This document shows positions 21,117 through 32,611 of a stretch of 59,889 nucleotides of DNA, one piece after another; within the stretch, counting starts at the first letter, position 1; the number at the start of each line of letters is the position of its first letter. The position numbers and the translations under genes are program-made. Under the pieces are notes generated by a model that saw only the letters and a program-made list of their open reading frames with translations, had not been told where the DNA came from and did not search any database. The stretch comes from a virus: positions 1-59,889 of IMG/VR virus record IMGVR_UViG_3300010371_000040. One strand, 5' to 3'.

Positions 21117-21977
21117 ATGTCATACCTATGCATCTACCACGCGAATTGCGCCGATGGCTTCGCCGCCGCCTGGGTCGTTCACCGCGCTCTCGGCGATCAG
21201 GTCGAATTCCACGCCGCGACCTATGGCGACACGCCGCCCGAGGTCATCAACAAGCACGTACTGGTCGTCGATTTCTCGTACCCGCTCGAAGACCTGACCC
21301 GTATGCAGTCTCGGGCTAACAGCGTGATGGTGCTCGACCACCACAAGACTGCCGAGGCCGATCTGCGCGACATCGAGGCCGGATCGGCGTCGTTCCACAA
21401 TCACGATCACGTCGGTCTACGGGCGATCTTCAATCAGACGACTTCCGGCGCGGGCCTCGTATGGGATTGGTTCAACCCGGGCGATCCGAGGCCGCTGATC
21501 ATCGACTACGTCGAGGACCGCGACCTGTGGAAGTTCCAGAAGGACCACTCGCGCGAAATCAACTCCTTCATCTCCACCATCGAAGATGACTTCGGGGTCT
21601 GGGATACGGAGGCCGAATCGCTTGAAGACGATCTCGGCTTTGAGATGGCCCGAGGGATCGGTCACACACTCGAAAAGTGGAAGCGGGAGTACGTCGACGA
21701 TGCCGTCAGCGCGAGCAAACGCATCATGCGGATCGGCGGCCACGATGTTCCGTGCGCGAACGTGCCGTTCCGCATGGCTTCCGACGCGGGCAATCTTATG
21801 TGCAAGGGCAATCCGTTCGCGGCCACGTATTGCGACACGGAAAAGGGGCGCGTATTCAGCCTGCGCTCGACCGACGCCGGGCTCGATGTGTCCGTTGTCG
21901 CCAAGTCCTACGGCGGCGGCGGGCACCGGAATGCCAGCGGATTCAAGATGCCGATCGGCTGGGAAGGAGACCTGTAA
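21117..21977 (+). CDS. DHH-family phosphoesterase
   Basis: A 286-residue enzyme. The DHH domain shows YHANCADGFAAAW (Asp13), VVDFSYP and VLDHHKT, the acidic/His ligands for two metal ions. DHHA1 follows, ending in AKSYGGGGHRNASGF, the GGGHxxAxG motif. The family includes nano-RNases (NrnA), RecJ and pyrophosphatases; length fits the NrnA-like group. It lies in the morphogenesis block, perhaps recycling short RNAs or nucleotides. Confidence 0.85.
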   Translation: MSYLCIYHANCADGFAAAWVVHRALGDQVEFHAATYGDTPPEVINKHVLVVDFSYPLEDLTRMQSRANSVMVLDHHKTAEADLRDIEAGSASFHNHDHVGLRAIFNQTTSGAGLVWDWFNPGDPRPLIIDYVEDRDLWKFQKDHSREINSFISTIEDDFGVWDTEAESLEDDLGFEMARGIGHTLEKWKREYVDDAVSASKRIMRIGGHDVPCANVPFRMASDAGNLMCKGNPFAATYCDTEKGRVFSLRSTDAGLDVSVVAKSYGGGGHRNASGFKMPIGWEGDL

Positions 21978-22348: not shown

Positions 22349-24046
22349 ATGCTGCTGCCATCCAGTGACCGCCTCGCCCGCTGGGCCAAGGAACGGGTGA
22401 TCGACCAGTGCCGCAGCAGCGTCGGCGATCGCATGCAGATGGCCCGGTCGATCAACACATGGCGATTCACCGGCAGCGATAGCGGGTCACAGGCGATCTA
22501 TAACCGCCTCGGAACCCACTGCGATAAGCTCTCGTCCGCGGTGTACTCGCCGGCCGACGTCCGCTACCAGATCGAGTACGAGTCCGACTATGGATCGATC
22601 TTCACGGACAGAGCCAAGGTCGCGGCCCGCTATCTGACGCGCGAGATCGCCCAGCGTAACCTCGACCTGTCGTTCCAGGAGGCCGTGGAGGAAGCCGTCC
22701 CGCTCGGTTGCGCGATCCTCAAGCACATCTGGACGCACCACGGCCCCGACGTCACCACGCTGATGCCGTGGCAGTTCGGTGTCTATAACGAGGCGGAAAC
22801 GGATCTCGATAAGCAGGAGGCGATGTGCGAGACGACCTACTTGCTGCCCGAGGAAGTCTGGCGCCGCATCAGCCACCGCTCGGACGCCAAGGAACTCTTC
22901 CGCCGGATCATGTCGCACTCCCGCCGTGCGTCTCAGGATGAGGTTCCGCCTGGCTTCATGCACCAGCTTCTGATGGCTGGCACCCCGCCGCTGATCCAGG
23001 ACCAAGGCGCGGCATCGAGCCCCGGCGGCATGATCTCGCTCACCGGCACGCCGGCGGTTGCGATGATGGCCGCCGAGATGCAGGACGGTCTCATCGAGGC
23101 GCACCAGGCGTGGGTGGTGAACGACGAGACCGGCGACTACACGACGATCCAGCTCATCGAGCCGGACATCCTGATCGCGCCGCGGCTGATCCGCTCGAAC
23201 CTGTTTTTCCCGCACGAGCACCCGTTCAATGTCGTGCGCGTCAATCCGCAGCGGAACTACTTCTGGGGCATGTCCGAGCTCTCGCAGTTGATCAAGCTCC
23301 AGGCGCTGCTGCGCGACCGCACCGAGGACGTGAAGAAGATCATGGGCCTCCAGTACGACCGTATCCGCGCGTTCATCGGCTTCTCGGGCATGAACGATGA
23401 GAAGTACGACCAGATGACCAACGAGGGGTGGCTGTCTGAGGAAAACCCCAACGCGAAGATCGACGACCTGACGCCACCGCTGCCCGAGAACGCATTCAAC
23501 GAGATCAAGATGATCATCGATTTCTTCGATGAGATCGCCGGGTTCGATAATGCGACGTCGGGCAAGGGCGAGCCGGGCATCCGGTCGGCGAACCACTTTC
23601 AGGGCGTGCTTCGGCAGGCATCCCCGCGTCTGCGCGACCGCGCAATCCGGGTCGAGCGCCAGTGCGCGGAGTTCGGCGAGAAGGTTTTGTGGCACTGCGC
23701 CGCGAAGGACGCCCGGGTTTTCTGGACGAAGACCGACGATCCGGAGAAAAAGACCGATTTCCTGCTGTCACAGCTTCCCGATGACGCTCGCGTGCTGGTC
23801 GACAGCCATTCCGCGAGCCCGATCTACGAGCAGGACCATGCGAATACGGCGGCGTTTTTGTTCAAAAGTGGCGCCATCGACAGCGAAGATTTGTTGAACC
23901 TTCTTCCGGTACCAAACAGAGATTTTCTCATCGAGAAACTTAAAAACAGGGAAATATCGAAGCGCCAGATGCTGGAGAGTCTTCCGCCCGAGCTACGCGC
24001 CCAAGTCATTACCGGAAAGACCGTCAGCCACGCCGGAAAGCATTGA
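22349..24046 (+). CDS. Portal protein
   Basis: A 565-residue protein in the place and of the size expected for the podovirus portal. It shows the helical wing, the PWQFGVYNEAE segment, DYTTIQLIEPDILIAPRLI and the long helical KLQALLRDRTEDVKKIMGLQ stem region. The end (PPELRAQVITGKTVSHAGKH) is basic. It lies three genes after the zinc-ribbon protein and is followed at once by a strong hairpin and the foreign minus-strand cassette. Confidence 0.85.
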   Translation: MLLPSSDRLARWAKERVIDQCRSSVGDRMQMARSINTWRFTGSDSGSQAIYNRLGTHCDKLSSAVYSPADVRYQIEYESDYGSIFTDRAKVAARYLTREIAQRNLDLSFQEAVEEAVPLGCAILKHIWTHHGPDVTTLMPWQFGVYNEAETDLDKQEAMCETTYLLPEEVWRRISHRSDAKELFRRIMSHSRRASQDEVPPGFMHQLLMAGTPPLIQDQGAASSPGGMISLTGTPAVAMMAAEMQDGLIEAHQAWVVNDETGDYTTIQLIEPDILIAPRLIRSNLFFPHEHPFNVVRVNPQRNYFWGMSELSQLIKLQALLRDRTEDVKKIMGLQYDRIRAFIGFSGMNDEKYDQMTNEGWLSEENPNAKIDDLTPPLPENAFNEIKMIIDFFDEIAGFDNATSGKGEPGIRSANHFQGVLRQASPRLRDRAIRVERQCAEFGEKVLWHCAAKDARVFWTKTDDPEKKTDFLLSQLPDDARVLVDSHSASPIYEQDHANTAAFLFKSGAIDSEDLLNLLPVPNRDFLIEKLKNREISKRQMLESLPPELRAQVITGKTVSHAGKH

Positions 24047-24066
24047 GGGGAGGCTTTCGCCTCCCC
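24047..24066. terminator. Perfect hairpin between portal gene and pentamer array
   Basis: Stem GGGGAGGC pairs perfectly with GCCTCCCC around a TTTC loop. It starts just after the portal stop and sits at the far (3') end of the minus-strand pentamer tract. There is no T-run on either strand, so it may be a pausing or RNA-end-protecting hairpin rather than a classic terminator. Confidence 0.6.
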
Positions 24067-24450
24067 TCCCCTGCCTGACCAGACCTCTGCTCACCGCGCC
24101 TCGCGATACCGCACCCCGGCGCAGCTTGCCAAGCCAAGCCAAACTCTAAATCTCTAAAATAATCCTCGCCGCACCTATCCATTGCACACCTCACCGAGGC
24201 CGTCCTTGCCCAGCACCGCCCTACAGGACCAAGCCGCGCCGAAACTGAAATTGATAAATAAATCCTCGCCAGACCACACCCGGCCACGGCTGACCAAACA
24301 CTGCACCGCCACACCCAATTCGACCTTGGACCGCCGGACCTAAGCCCGCCATTCCACGCGCAACCCTGCCGAAGCATTCCGCGCCTAGCCTTGCCTAACA
24401 CCGCACAACCTCGCCGGGCCATGGCTAGCCAATCCCAGCCGTGCCGGACC
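24067..24450 (-). repeat. In-register pentanucleotide tract (GGNNN on the minus strand), probable structural RNA
   Basis: Cut into 5-mers from 24061, the plus strand gives about 78 units to 24450, of which I count 51 ending in CC; several more end in GC. The register never slips. Two A/T-rich blocks of exactly 20 nt (24141-24160 and 24241-24260) interrupt it, and each is followed by the same ten bases AATCCTCGCC (24161-24170 and 24261-24270). On the minus strand this is (GGNNN)n starting right after the stop of the gene at 24453. It is not a protein gene: the open frame has no sensible composition. I suggest a transcribed RNA. Confidence 0.75.
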
Positions 24451-24452
24451 CC

Positions 24453-25076
24453 TTATCCTGCCTCAATCGAAAAGTTGGAAATGCCGAAACGACCGTAAGT
24501 CGGCCGGAAATCGCCGACGCCGACCAGACGACCAGCGGACTCGATGGTCTCGCGCAGGTCGTTGGTCGAAATGTACTCAGGTAGGCCGCACATCAGTTGG
24601 ATTTCGGCGGCCCAACCCGCCCGCATCGCAGGACGCGTGCGCGTGATCGCCGACCGTTGAATGACGACCCGCCGCCGATCCTCGTAGTCCCAATCCGGGG
24701 TTCCGAGAGAGGCCAATTCGGTCAGGCTGACGATCCCGGCGTTGAATAAATCCATCGCCGACTTCCGGGGGCTGCGCGGGTCCTGACGGAACTTCGCCGC
24801 CATCACGATCGACCGCCGCAGGTATTCGCCGGGCAGGCAGAGCATCCCCGCCTCGTCGCGGTAGACGTAGCTTTCCAGATCGTCGCTCTTTTTGGCCGCG
24901 CTGTTCTTCGCCGCCTTCGCCTTGGTCTCGACGGCCTCCGAATTCCACCGATGGAACAGGATCGCCGCCGATCCCACGATTGTGACGCGCGCGATGTACG
25001 GCTCGCTGAGTGCGATGTCCGAGTTTCCGCCGGGCGAAACGCCGTCGATGACCTTCAATGCTGCTGACTTTGCCAC
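24453..25076 (-). CDS. Cassette protein with RAMP/Cas7-like C-terminal motif, 207 residues
   Basis: GTG 25076 is chosen because AGGAG lies 7 bp before it. A likely strand (YIARVTIVGSAAILFHRW, 27-44) is followed by a Lys/Ala-rich loop, LCLPGEYLRRSIVMAAKF (79-96), PRSPRKSAMDLF, a basic strand VVIQRSAITRTRP and finally AGRLVGVGDFRPTYGRFGI (181-199). The Gly/Arg end resembles the glycine-rich loop of RAMP (Cas7-like) RNA-binding proteins, but I cannot confirm homology. Its stop codon abuts the pentamer tract, suggesting protein and RNA belong together. No nuclease motif is visible. Confidence 0.6.
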   Translation of the reverse strand: MAKSAALKVIDGVSPGGNSDIALSEPYIARVTIVGSAAILFHRWNSEAVETKAKAAKNSAAKKSDDLESYVYRDEAGMLCLPGEYLRRSIVMAAKFRQDPRSPRKSAMDLFNAGIVSLTELASLGTPDWDYEDRRRVVIQRSAITRTRPAMRAGWAAEIQLMCGLPEYISTNDLRETIESAGRLVGVGDFRPTYGRFGISNFSIEAG

Positions 25077-25160
25077 TTGCAATCTCCTTGCCTAAAAACG
25101 CCATATGTCGTATGGCTCGCGCATTGCTATTAGCACTACGTATTGCAGGGAGCAAGCATT
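25077..25160. promoter_or_regulatory. Divergent control region of the cassette
   Basis: An 84-bp gap between the minus-strand RAMP-like gene and the plus-strand ribbon-helix-helix gene. It contains the inverted repeat CCATA-tgtcg-TATGG (25101-25115), a size and shape suited to a ribbon-helix-helix dimer. For the minus strand, TTGCTC with TAATAG 17 bp downstream is a weak promoter candidate. Autoregulation by the RHH protein is inferred. Confidence 0.5.
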
Positions 25161-25316
25161 ATGTCCGAGAAAGTCGCGGTAACCTTCCGCATCGAGAAAA
25201 AGCTGAGAGACCAGCTTGAGAAAATCGCACATTTCGAGCGCCGGACGATGACCGGCGTCATTGAAGCGATGATCGATGATCGGTGGAAGCAGACGCCGGA
25301 CGGGAAGGCCGACTAA
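25161..25316 (+). CDS. Ribbon-helix-helix regulator, 51 residues
   Basis: ATG 25161 preceded by GGGAG. The sequence VAVTFRIEKKLRDQLEKIAH then RRTMTGVIEAMIDDRW matches the MetJ/Arc/CopG fold: a beta strand, a helix, a turn and a second helix. Its stop overlaps the convergent KTSC gene's stop. It diverges from the RAMP-like gene and probably controls it. Confidence 0.75.
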   Translation: MSEKVAVTFRIEKKLRDQLEKIAHFERRTMTGVIEAMIDDRWKQTPDGKAD

Positions 25317-27536: not shown

Positions 27537-28559
27537 GTGACCTTCCCGCTTTCCGGAACTGGCATCGCACCGACAGGGCCAGTCTTCAGCGAACTCAACG
27601 CCCTGACGCGCCGCGCATTCATTCCGACGGTGGTCACGCAGCTCTATTTCTCGAGCCCGTCCCTGTTCATGCTGATGGGTGCGGCCCAACGCGCGGCCGG
27701 CGGCCTCAACCAGATCACGGTGCCGGTGCAGGGCCAGTCGATGGTCCAGGGTGCCTGGACCGGCTATGCGGGCAACTTCAACAGGCCTCAGGTCATCCCC
27801 GGCGTTCAGCCCGCCCAGTGGATGCTGAGCTACTATACCGTCCCGGTCCCGCTGGTCATGGGCGAGGCGCTCATCCAGTCGACCGAGGCGATCGTTCCGA
27901 TCATCGACGTCCGCATGAACGACGTGTACGCGGTGATGGCGCAGCAGTTCTCAAGCGCGCTGTTCAGCAACAACTCGGCGAATTCGCTGATGCCGCAGGG
28001 TTTCGTCGAGGCATTCGACGATGGCAGCCAGGTGCCGGTCTACGGCGGCATCGCGCGCAACCAGGGCGGAAACCAGTTCTGGCAGTCCAACCGCATCACC
28101 AATGTCGGCGCCAACAACACGCGCGCCGCCTGGTCGACCTATCTGATCCAGGTGACCAAGCTGGCCGGCGGCGAGACGCCCGATTTCGTGCTGATGTCAC
28201 CCGGCGACTTCGCCGTCCTGGCGGCGCAGTTCATCGGTGTCGAGCAGATCAACATACGTCCGGGCCAGCAGTTCACGATGGACACGAACATCCGGTCGGG
28301 CTTCCCGAACGTGATGATCAACGGGGTGCCGTTCTTCCTCGACTACTCGTGCCCGACCGGCACGGCGTATATGGCGAACAGCAAGTATTACGCCATGCAT
28401 ATCAGTGAGGACGCGCAGTTCGACTTCACCGGGTTCTATAGCCTTGTTCCATTGGGGCAATTGGCCGTCGTAGGCGTAGCTTACACCGGGTATAATGTGA
28501 TTTGCTCAAAGCCCGTTTCTGGTGCAAGTTTCAGTGGCATCACTGGGGCGCCATTTTAG
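27537..28559 (+). CDS. Major capsid protein
   Basis: A 340-residue protein from GTG 27537, 12 bp after the scaffold-like gene. It shows an N-terminal arm, FIPTVVTQLYFSSPSLFMLM, a long helix region (AVMAQQFSSALFSNN) and a beta-rich core ending in GQLAVVGVAYTGYNVICSKP. Length, composition and place between scaffold and connectors fit an HK97-fold capsid protein. Its stop overlaps the convergent HNH stop. Confidence 0.8.
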   Translation: MTFPLSGTGIAPTGPVFSELNALTRRAFIPTVVTQLYFSSPSLFMLMGAAQRAAGGLNQITVPVQGQSMVQGAWTGYAGNFNRPQVIPGVQPAQWMLSYYTVPVPLVMGEALIQSTEAIVPIIDVRMNDVYAVMAQQFSSALFSNNSANSLMPQGFVEAFDDGSQVPVYGGIARNQGGNQFWQSNRITNVGANNTRAAWSTYLIQVTKLAGGETPDFVLMSPGDFAVLAAQFIGVEQINIRPGQQFTMDTNIRSGFPNVMINGVPFFLDYSCPTGTAYMANSKYYAMHISEDAQFDFTGFYSLVPLGQLAVVGVAYTGYNVICSKPVSGASFSGITGAPF

Positions 28560-29236
28560 GACTTGCGATTACTTAGTAGTGCCTCTGCAATAGAGTACAT
28601 GTCTTCATCGGTAGTTGAGCCCTTGAAGGCATTGAGTGACCAAAGGATGAACCGGCAGTTCGACTGCACATATCCGAGCTTCGGCTCGATCTTGTCGATG
28701 GAAGGGTGAAAGGTAAAAGGTGTTCCTCCGGGCATACCAATCGCGAATGGGATATTTGAAAGCTCGCATCGGCCAGTCCAGCGGGCTAAAGCCCATTCTG
28801 CCGTTAGGTCGAAAGGCATTCCTCGCTTTTCCGCCCGCCTTCGCACGCCATCCAGCAGGGGCTTCCACGGCTCTTCCAGCCTCCGTTGCTGGTACTGCAC
28901 CTTTCTCCGGCCATTATCAGCATGGCGATAAGCCTCGTGAAGCCGGTAATAATTCCTGGTTTTCCAGCGGTTTCTGCATTCAAAGCAGCAGAACTTCTGC
29001 GTTCGCCTTGTTTGCACGAGCGGGCGCTTGCATTCCAGGCATTCTGTCTCGGCTAGCGCAGGTTTTCCGGCGTTTCGTTTTTCGCGCTCTGCGGCCAATC
29101 TCGCGTCTCGATGGCGCAGATAGCATTGGCGCTGCTTATATCGAAGTCTGCACTTCTTGCCACAGTAAAGGCGAGTTGAGATGCGCGTCTGAAAAGATGA
29201 TCCGCATTGCTGGCAGTTTCGTTCCTCAAGCTTCAT
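28556..29236 (-). CDS. HNH-type homing endonuclease with zinc knuckles
   Basis: A 226-residue protein from ATG 29236 (GAGGA upstream). N-terminal knuckles: NCQQCGSSF ... YCGKKC and TECLECKRPL ... FCCFECRNRW. The C-terminal nuclease has the phage HNH phrase HPSIDKIEPKLGYVQSNCRF followed by LWSLNAFKG. It is the only minus-strand gene between the capsid gene and the next structural gene, of lower GC than its neighbours. A mobile, self-spreading gene is likely. Confidence 0.8.
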   Translation of the reverse strand: MKLEERNCQQCGSSFQTRISTRLYCGKKCRLRYKQRQCYLRHRDARLAAEREKRNAGKPALAETECLECKRPLVQTRRTQKFCCFECRNRWKTRNYYRLHEAYRHADNGRRKVQYQQRRLEEPWKPLLDGVRRRAEKRGMPFDLTAEWALARWTGRCELSNIPFAIGMPGGTPFTFHPSIDKIEPKLGYVQSNCRFILWSLNAFKGSTTDEDMYSIAEALLSNRKS

Positions 29237-29280
29237 TCCGTCCTCACGGGATTTTTGCCTTCGTAAAAGGGGTATCATAA

Positions 29281-30900: not shown

Positions 30901-31655
30901 TGGCCCTCTTCGCCTACCGCCAACAGGTGGAGCGGCTGCTTCAGGACACGCAGCAGGTTCTCTATAACCTCGCCGACATCGACGTCTATATCAACGACGC
31001 GCGGGTCCAGATCGCGCTTGCGGCCGAGTGCATCCGACAGCCGGCGCAGATCGCGATGGTCCAGGGACAGCAGTCGTACGCATTCTCCAGCGCAACATTC
31101 ACCGCGGCCCCGACGATTCCCGCTGGTCTGGGCGGGGTCGGCAATGTCCGGAGCTGCATGCTGGTTCTGGCGACGACCAATCCGCAAGGCCAGCCGGGGC
31201 AGAAGCGCATCCCGATCCGCGCGTGGGAGTGGTTCGAAAGCTACTATCTCGCCGTGAACGTGCCGACGCAGGGCGCGCCGGTGATCTCGGCCAGGCTGCA
31301 GCCGGGTCTCGTCGGCACGCTGTGGTTCGCGCCGCCGCCCGACGCGGCCTATCAGATCAACCTCGACGCCGTGGCCTATCCGGCGGCGCTGGCGACCGAC
31401 GCCGACCCGGAGGCTCTGCCGTACCCGTGGACGGACGCGGTGCCGTTCTTCGCCGCATACCTCGCCTATCTCAGCACGCAGAACGCGGACGCGGCTCAGA
31501 AGATGTGGATCGAATATTCGAAATTCCAGCAGCGCGGCACGCAGATCACGACGCCGACTAGGACCCCGTACAAGTACCCTGGCGGCATGGGCGCACAGGA
31601 GGCCATGCAGAAGGTGCCGTTGACCGGCGGCCTGCAGCGCCAGGGTGGCGGCTGA
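30900..31655 (+). CDS. Connector-like protein, paralogue 2 of 3
   Basis: 251 residues; ATG 30900 overlaps the preceding stop. It shares VYINDARVQIALAAECIRQP, ALPYPWTDAVPFFAAYLAYL and KFQQRGTQITTPTRTPYKYP with the gene before, clearly a tandem duplication. Role as for paralogue 1. Confidence 0.65.
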   Translation: MALFAYRQQVERLLQDTQQVLYNLADIDVYINDARVQIALAAECIRQPAQIAMVQGQQSYAFSSATFTAAPTIPAGLGGVGNVRSCMLVLATTNPQGQPGQKRIPIRAWEWFESYYLAVNVPTQGAPVISARLQPGLVGTLWFAPPPDAAYQINLDAVAYPAALATDADPEALPYPWTDAVPFFAAYLAYLSTQNADAAQKMWIEYSKFQQRGTQITTPTRTPYKYPGGMGAQEAMQKVPLTGGLQRQGGG

Positions 31656-32611
31656 TGGGCGCGCTGTATGGGTATATGCAGGCGACCCAGCGACTGCTTT
31701 CCGATGAAGTCCAGGCGGTTTATTCGCTGGATGACCTGGAGAACTATATCCAGCAGGGCCGCGAAGAAGTGGCGATGCAGGGGCAGTGCATCCGGCGGAC
31801 TACGCCCATCTCCGGCTCGATCATGGCGCTCCAGGTGGTCAACCCGGGGTCGGGCTACACCAACCCGACCATCCAGATATCGCCGCCCGACTCGCCGCAG
31901 GGGTTGTTGCCCTATCCCACCGGAGCTCAAGCGACGGGTACGCTTCAGCAGATCGGTGGCCAGATTTCCAACGGCAGCGTCAGCTTCGGCGGCAGCGGGT
32001 ACTATGCGCCGGCCGCGACGGTGGTCGATCCGACCGGCACAGGAGCCGTCGTGCAGCCGATCGTCTCGCCGGTATCGCAGACCACGTACGGGCAGGAGAC
32101 GTATCAGTTCGCCGATTTCCCGATGTCGATGTATCCCGGCGTCGGCCCGATCTTCGCCGCGCGCAGCGTGTCGGTGCAGTGGACGCAGTGGCAATATAGC
32201 ATCAGCTTCGTCTCGTTCTCGAAATACCAGGCGCTGGTCCGGCAGTACGTGTCGTCGTTCTTCGCGCCGCCCGTGATCGGCTGCCAGTTCGGGCAAGGCA
32301 CCGACGGCAGCTTCAAGCTCTATCCGCTGGCCGACCAGAACTATCAGCTCACGCTCGATGCGCTGTGCCTGCCGCTTCCGCTGCTCGACGACCAGTCGCC
32401 GGAAGCGATCCCCGACCCGTTCACCCGCGCGGTGCCGTATTACGCCGCCCACTTGGCGCTTCTTGGCCGCGCCTCGATGTTTCCGCAATACTCGCAACTC
32501 GCCATGGCCTATTTCAATCCCAAGGACGGCGGCCTTTTCGGCATGTATTTGCGCCGCGCTTGCGCGTTCACCCAACCAGGCCGGGTCAGCAGCTTCTATA
32601 GCCGGATATGA
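31655..32611 (+). CDS. Connector-like protein, paralogue 3 of 3, with GSGY insert
   Basis: 318 residues; ATG 31655 overlaps the preceding stop. It keeps the N-terminal pattern (RLLSDEVQAVYSLDDLENYI, GREEVAMQGQCIRR) and the AVPYYAAHLALLGRASMF segment. In the middle it has acquired GSGYTNPTIQISPPDSPQ and GSGYYAPAATVVDPTGTGA, the beta modules seen in neighbouring proteins. Confidence 0.65.
   Translation: MGALYGYMQATQRLLSDEVQAVYSLDDLENYIQQGREEVAMQGQCIRRTTPISGSIMALQVVNPGSGYTNPTIQISPPDSPQGLLPYPTGAQATGTLQQIGGQISNGSVSFGGSGYYAPAATVVDPTGTGAVVQPIVSPVSQTTYGQETYQFADFPMSMYPGVGPIFAARSVSVQWTQWQYSISFVSFSKYQALVRQYVSSFFAPPVIGCQFGQGTDGSFKLYPLADQNYQLTLDALCLPLPLLDDQSPEAIPDPFTRAVPYYAAHLALLGRASMFPQYSQLAMAYFNPKDGGLFGMYLRRACAFTQPGRVSSFYSRI

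Follow-up and report, generated by a model that had tools for sequence, protein, structure and literature searches.

A probable VIPR system in a tailed phage, with a guide that matches the portal gene of related phages

The window, by which we mean the whole analysed stretch of 59,889 nucleotides (IMG/VR virus record IMGVR_UViG_3300010371_000040), contains a gene for a RAMP protein and, on the same strand, a tract of five-base units located between this gene and the portal gene. The names vipr and vrRNA used below are those of the recently described VIPR systems. The features of the locus are as follows.

24453 to 25082, minus strand: vipr gene (start called at a TTG); its 209-aa RAMP product is a homologue of SUSP1 Vipr
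24061 to 24450, minus strand: vrRNA array (putative), 78 in-register GGYNN units including the tail blocks; in 82 of 84 related loci vipr likewise has tracts next to it on its own strand
24271 to 24450, minus strand: segment A, 36 uninterrupted GGYNN units
24241 to 24270, minus strand: tail-like block after segment A, GGCGAGGATT followed by 20 A/T-rich nucleotides, with no stable fold
24171 to 24240, minus strand: segment B, a putative guide of 14 units
24141 to 24170, minus strand: tail-like block after segment B, GGCGAGGATT followed by 20 A/T-rich nucleotides; a copy of the block at 24241, with 100 nt from start to start
24071 to 24140, minus strand: segment C, 14 units forming a putative guide; read with a one-base skip, the initial 12 units (24081-24140) match the portal gene in related phages, or 13 if AGTTT at 24141-24145 is counted
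24045 to 24068, minus strand: hairpin that closes the array on its 3' side, with a 10-bp stem and a GAAA loop; end or tail of the last putative vrRNA
23858 to 23892, plus strand: site in the window's own portal gene (22349-24046) that corresponds to the guide C target; 19 of 24 guide bases, a weaker match than in the best rivals
25161 to 25316, plus strand: small divergent ribbon-helix-helix (Arc-like) gene, 51 aa; PHROG Arc-like repressor, E=6e-5

Elsewhere in the window, TRF identified the same kind of 60-bp tandem repeat at both contig ends (1-183 and 59742-59889), encoding for example 'VNNPGLTALPDLSGATDVW'. The break in the contig probably falls within a single repeat array, and the genome may therefore be circular or circularly permuted. 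An HNH endonuclease gene (28556-29278, minus strand) lies on the opposite strand within the late region, where it separates the major head protein gene from the one that follows, and the product of the gene at 21117-21977, between the terminase and portal genes, starts with YHANCADGFAAAW, which by eye resembles a DHH-family phosphoesterase.

The tract keeps a register of five across 390 nt with zero indels. In one phase of the plus strand, 51 of the 78 pentamers between 24061 and 24450 end in CC, compared with a mean of 17.7 for the best phase in 1000 dinucleotide-preserving shuffles (sd 1.7, max 26) and with 21 in the best other 390-base stretch of the window. The strong lag-5 signal over the shuffled controls, which a sequence-only reading of this DNA had named as a test, confirms the 390-bp in-register pentanucleotide tract reported there, and the register can be considered established. 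On the minus strand, positions 1 and 2 of the unit are each a G in 61 of the 78 units and position 3 is a pyrimidine in 66, while positions 4 and 5 are near random in composition. The unit is thus GGYNN; the earlier description as (GGNNN)n captured the GG and the spacing but missed the pyrimidine. A coding explanation was rejected, since a five-base period is incompatible with one reading frame, and the minus-strand ORF at 24024-24422 has no supporting homologue. Searches of the tract against Rfam gave no match at E<=1, and BLASTN of the tract region against phage records returned none.

The motif for a two-tetrad quadruplex with loops of three is GGN3GGN3GGN3GG, and the spacing of the GG pairs would fit a series of such G-quadruplexes that fold as RNA or DNA and have no guide function. 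However, a quadruplex requires no register held constant through 78 units and no pyrimidine in the third position (66 of 78), and quadruplexes predict neither the linkage to a RAMP gene nor the match of the NN letters to portal genes described below, a match that already disfavours this explanation. We consider it highly improbable.

The tract follows immediately on the stop codon of the 24453 gene, as had also been claimed from the sequence. When searched against PDB as a single sequence, the product of this gene matched 36pp_D ("SUSP1 Vipr protein") with E=3.2e-7, and a profile of 53 Vipr homologues without SUSP1 matched the same entry with E=4.2e-11 and no other; a version of the profile that contained SUSP1 Vipr was discarded as evidence. 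We regard the homology to Vipr as established. The Vipr homologue further matches phrog_4652, a family of unknown function (E=4.6e-18), and has no family match in Pfam, NCBIfam or PADLOC; the PADLOC and NCBIfam scan covered the RAMP protein, and the neighbours of vipr were scanned with PHROGs and Pfam. An AlphaFold2 model of the protein (pLDDT 83) has CRISPR Cas7/Csm3-type RAMP subunits as its best Foldseek matches (E 2e-7), and the VIA-align superposition on the Cas7/Csm3 RAMP gives Z 12.9 over 165 residues at 3.4-3.9 A, from which a Cas7/Csm3-type RAMP fold is predicted. The reading frame is intact and contains the residues that are invariant among 57 homologues (G184, G188, R193, P194, G197 and R198); the glycine-rich C-terminal stretch G184-R198 is among the most conserved parts of the protein. 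The homologue in phage DSL-LC04 (OR003939.1, 22429-23046) is annotated as a 'helix-turn-helix transcriptional regulator', an annotation that is contradicted by the RAMP homology.

VIPR (Viral Interference Programmable Repeat) was described on bioRxiv in April/June 2026 for, among others, Escherichia phage SUSP1 and a Pseudomonas fulva prophage (PMC13142463). These systems consist of the phage RAMP protein Vipr, which has a glycine-rich loop, and vrRNAs of about 100 nt that are encoded in intergenic DNA beside vipr, with 9-16 YNNGG repeats and an invariable, structured 3' tail, and the loci 'typically' include an accessory gene, vap (PMC13142463). The proposed mechanism is that Vipr subunits hold the GGY and present the NN, and that the NN pairs recognise dsDNA with one base skipped, usually the wobble base of a codon (PMC13142463). 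The targets are competing phages and satellites, and guides against vipr genes have been reported for other VIPR systems (PMC13142463). VIPR is a likely relative of CRISPR and has been proposed as its ancestor. A second paper on the system was not found in our literature search. The arrangement of vipr with a GGY/NN array is also visible in the SUSP1 sequence. The suggestion in the sequence-only reading of an RNA that something reads every five nucleotides is supported, for a putative minus-strand RNA tied to the gene at 24453 and a protein as its reader: VIPR vrRNAs work in this manner (PMC13142463), and the neighbouring gene codes for a Vipr homologue. The proposal of a new kind of RNA did not survive, as the family was already published in April-June 2026; the tract adds a member to this very recent family and comes with a natural target. 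The overall interpretation given in that reading is thus partly supported.

In minus-strand order, the array is composed of segment A, a block, segment B, a block, segment C and the hairpin. Both A/T-rich 20-nt blocks (24141-24160 and 24241-24260) are real, each adjoining the same ten bases, AATCCTCGCC (GGCGAGGATT on the minus strand), and they are placed 100 nt apart. Segments B and C have 14 units each, in modules 100 nt apart, and segment A has 36 units without a break and probably represents more than one (overlapping) guide. Similar tail-less GGYNN tracts of roughly 90-100 units were seen in two related loci, upstream of vipr in L016 and downstream in L055. Segment C runs into the GAAA hairpin at 24068-24045, which had been described as a perfect 8-bp hairpin; the hairpin exists, but its stem is 10 bp long. 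It has no T run and was not picked up by the terminator scan. The A/T-rich blocks fold no better than shuffles, which counts against the identification as VIPR. The earlier designation "structured RNA" is only partly apt: the tract is probably a guide, and its two A/T-rich blocks are no more stable than shuffles.

A search of IMG/VR with the Vipr alignment recovered 240 loci, 80 of which were examined. Together with L006, L007, phage DSL-LC04 and a Burkholderiales MAG (L012) this gave 84 loci, among which L040 and L006 represent a single contig and some further loci are nearly identical. In 82 of the 84, tracts with GG in register 5 lie no more than 1.5 kb from vipr and on its sense strand, upstream in 61 and downstream in 64, and an antisense tract was found in two. 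The linkage of tract and vipr is therefore conserved, and the homologous tracts in relatives that had been named as a second test are present.

No recurrent gene family was found beside vipr across the clade, except for by-products of the tracts and ordinary phage genes. The genes that follow vipr in SUSP1, DSL-LC04, Medea1 and LESphi2 have no homologues in the window either, which also counts against a VIPR system. The small protein encoded at 25161-25316 is, judging from its sequence, a putative regulator or accessory DNA-binding protein, and no convincing homologue of it was found beside other vipr genes. Arc-like proteins can bind short tandem sites, which raises the question of whether the tract is a binding array for this protein, or simply a degenerate tandem repeat. 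However, the tracts in the relatives adjoin vipr with no convincing ribbon-helix-helix homologue, and the NN letters, near random in composition, yet carry the sequence of a target. We give this explanation almost no credence.

The evidence for a target comes from segment C. Read in the pattern NNxNNx, its NN letters agree with the portal gene of phage L003 at 23 of 28 bases; the L003 portal is 72% identical to that of the window. In a comparison with 59 portal homologues, the best target of guide C is the portal gene of L111 (IMGVR_UViG_3300021433_000003), with 23 of 24 bases over 12 units, or 25 of 26 when one more 5' unit is added. The scores for other portal genes are 22/24 in both L003 and L108, 21 in L004 and 19 in the window itself. 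Sites that match guide C in at least 19 of 24 bases number 12 in 1.38 Mb of loci, and 11 of these 12 correspond to the same portal position (L003 counted twice). Guides C with shuffled unit order reach at most 21 (n=1000), reversed or complemented guides 18, and the NN letters with skips of 0, 2 or 3 bases 17, so that, among readings of the NN letters, only the one-base skip yields the match. The other dinucleotides of the pentamer, which are G-rich and of low complexity, reach 18-22, as scores taken irrespective of the portal site. In the guide C match, every skipped base falls on the wobble position in the frame of the portal gene. The dependence of the match between guide and target on the published code is in our opinion established, and the sequence data suggest that DNA targets are specified by the NN letters, with one base skipped after each pair.

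None of the portal-bearing phage contigs examined (L111, L108, L003, L005 and others) has a match to vipr, except L102, which was chosen for its vipr. No portal homologue was found in 398 genomes from the phylum to which the L012 host belongs. Two observations count against the VIPR interpretation, namely that the best target of guide C is imperfect (23/24) and that the exact 10-unit pattern of this guide was not found in the viral contig collection.

The one-base-skip code was determined independently of the present analysis (PMC13142463), and we examined it more broadly with 237 tracts (6590 units) from the 84 source loci and the window, searched against 1.6 Mb with the arrays masked. Matches with a score of at least 18 numbered 14 for a skip of 1 and 7 for a skip of 3, with none for skips of 0 and 2. 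Because a skip of 3 reproduces the pentamer itself, the 7 matches are taken to be residual array sequence. One of the 14 matches (L186) was chosen by guide pattern and is not independent. Besides the portal matches, which are among the 14, a guide in L046 (tract starting at 2751, units 25-35) matches vipr in the antisense orientation, with a one-base skip, in L016, L027, L030 and L072-L075. These matches to seven vipr genes point to a case of VIPR against VIPR.

When segments A and B were scored locally against all loci, and when their exact 8-unit patterns were searched in viral contigs and extended, the matches stayed at chance level, which again counts against the VIPR interpretation. Units 9-17 of segment A match 16 of 18 bases at 32495-32520 (minus strand) in the window's own gene at 31655-32611, with the skip at the wobble base. 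The score is borderline, at the 95th percentile of shuffles, and no near match was found in 10 related contigs. The site may mark a homologous target gene in a rival phage.

We also considered the possibility that the locus is a relic, in which guide C was once aimed at a portal gene and the system has since decayed and become non-functional in this phage. The array is admittedly irregular, with a GG start in 51 of the 78 units, an exact GGY in 42, and 8 units that belong to the A/T blocks, and this too weighs against the VIPR interpretation. A relic would be in line with the 27 units that have no GG start, the lack of a recognisable vap, the failure to find targets for A and B, and the imperfection of the sole target found. 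On the other hand, decay would have broken a register that has been kept over 390 nt with no indel, the vipr frame is intact with its invariant residues, and a recurrent neighbouring gene is absent from most relatives too. We find a relic unlikely. Taken together, we are confident that the locus represents a VIPR system of a tailed phage, and that its last guide is directed against the portal gene in related phages that compete with this one.

We hypothesize that minus-strand transcription covers both vipr and the array downstream of it, and that the array is cut or started into vrRNAs, each with a GGYNN run followed by a tail; a length of about 100 nt is suggested since the modules measure 100 nt. 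The Vipr RAMP subunits may then line up along the vrRNA, holding the GGY and presenting the NN, as proposed previously (PMC13142463), so that the NN pairs would read dsDNA as NNxNNx..., with the skipped base on the wobble position of the codon. The last guide (C) would repress the expression of the portal gene in competing phages, the phage's own portal gene differing at the target site, and segments A and B presumably carry further guides.

Our findings indicate that VIPR can be recovered from sequence alone, and they test and independently recover the one-base-skip code on guides that are absent from the main text of the original study (PMC13142463). The natural target lies in the portal gene of sister phages whose examined contigs contain no vipr, which points to phage-on-phage interference against a structural gene, with a self score of 19/24 compared to 22-23/24 for the best non-self sites. 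The 240 related IMG/VR loci show that the clade is common in environmental phages. More tentatively, the locus could belong to a large VIPR sub-lineage with no dedicated Vap. Long GGYNN stretches that run unbroken would act there as overlapping guides, and the phages would direct guides against an essential head gene of sister phages while the phage's own copy is kept distant by codon changes. We consider this extended hypothesis possible but somewhat doubtful. An example of such a codon change at the portal site is a serine encoded by AGT where several relatives use TCN.

With regard to known systems, the Cas7/Csm3 RAMP proteins of CRISPR (type III-A Csm and type VII) share the predicted fold over residues 26-209 of the Vipr homologue (Z about 12.9), whereas the sequence identity is only about 9-13%. 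CRISPR guides pair contiguously save for every sixth base (PMC13142463 and general knowledge), in contrast to the skipping of one base in VIPR, and no CRISPR array of identical repeats with unrelated spacers was detected, either in a repeat search of 23800-24700 or among the tandem repeats of the whole window. Phage DSL-LC04 (OR003939.1) codes for a protein that is 58-59% identical to the Vipr homologue and has sense-strand GGYNN tracts, but these are located upstream of vipr, and a small lysine-rich protein is encoded after it. The published VIPR systems of SUSP1 and the P. fulva prophage differ in several respects. SUSP1 Vipr has about 26% protein identity to its homologue in the window. The published tail is pseudoknotted, and that of SUSP1 is reported to be structured, whereas the tails in the window are short, A/T-rich and have no stable structure. 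The window furthermore has a 36-unit stretch with no tail and no recognisable vap beside vipr, and its guide matches the portal gene of sister phages, while published guides target satellites or lysogeny regulators. Common to these systems and the window are the RAMP-fold Vipr, the location in a phage, and the placement of vipr beside genes, putative in the window, for GGY/NN tandem-repeat RNAs, and probably also the units of about 100 nt and the targeting of coding DNA in competing phages, where the single skipped base falls on the wobble position.
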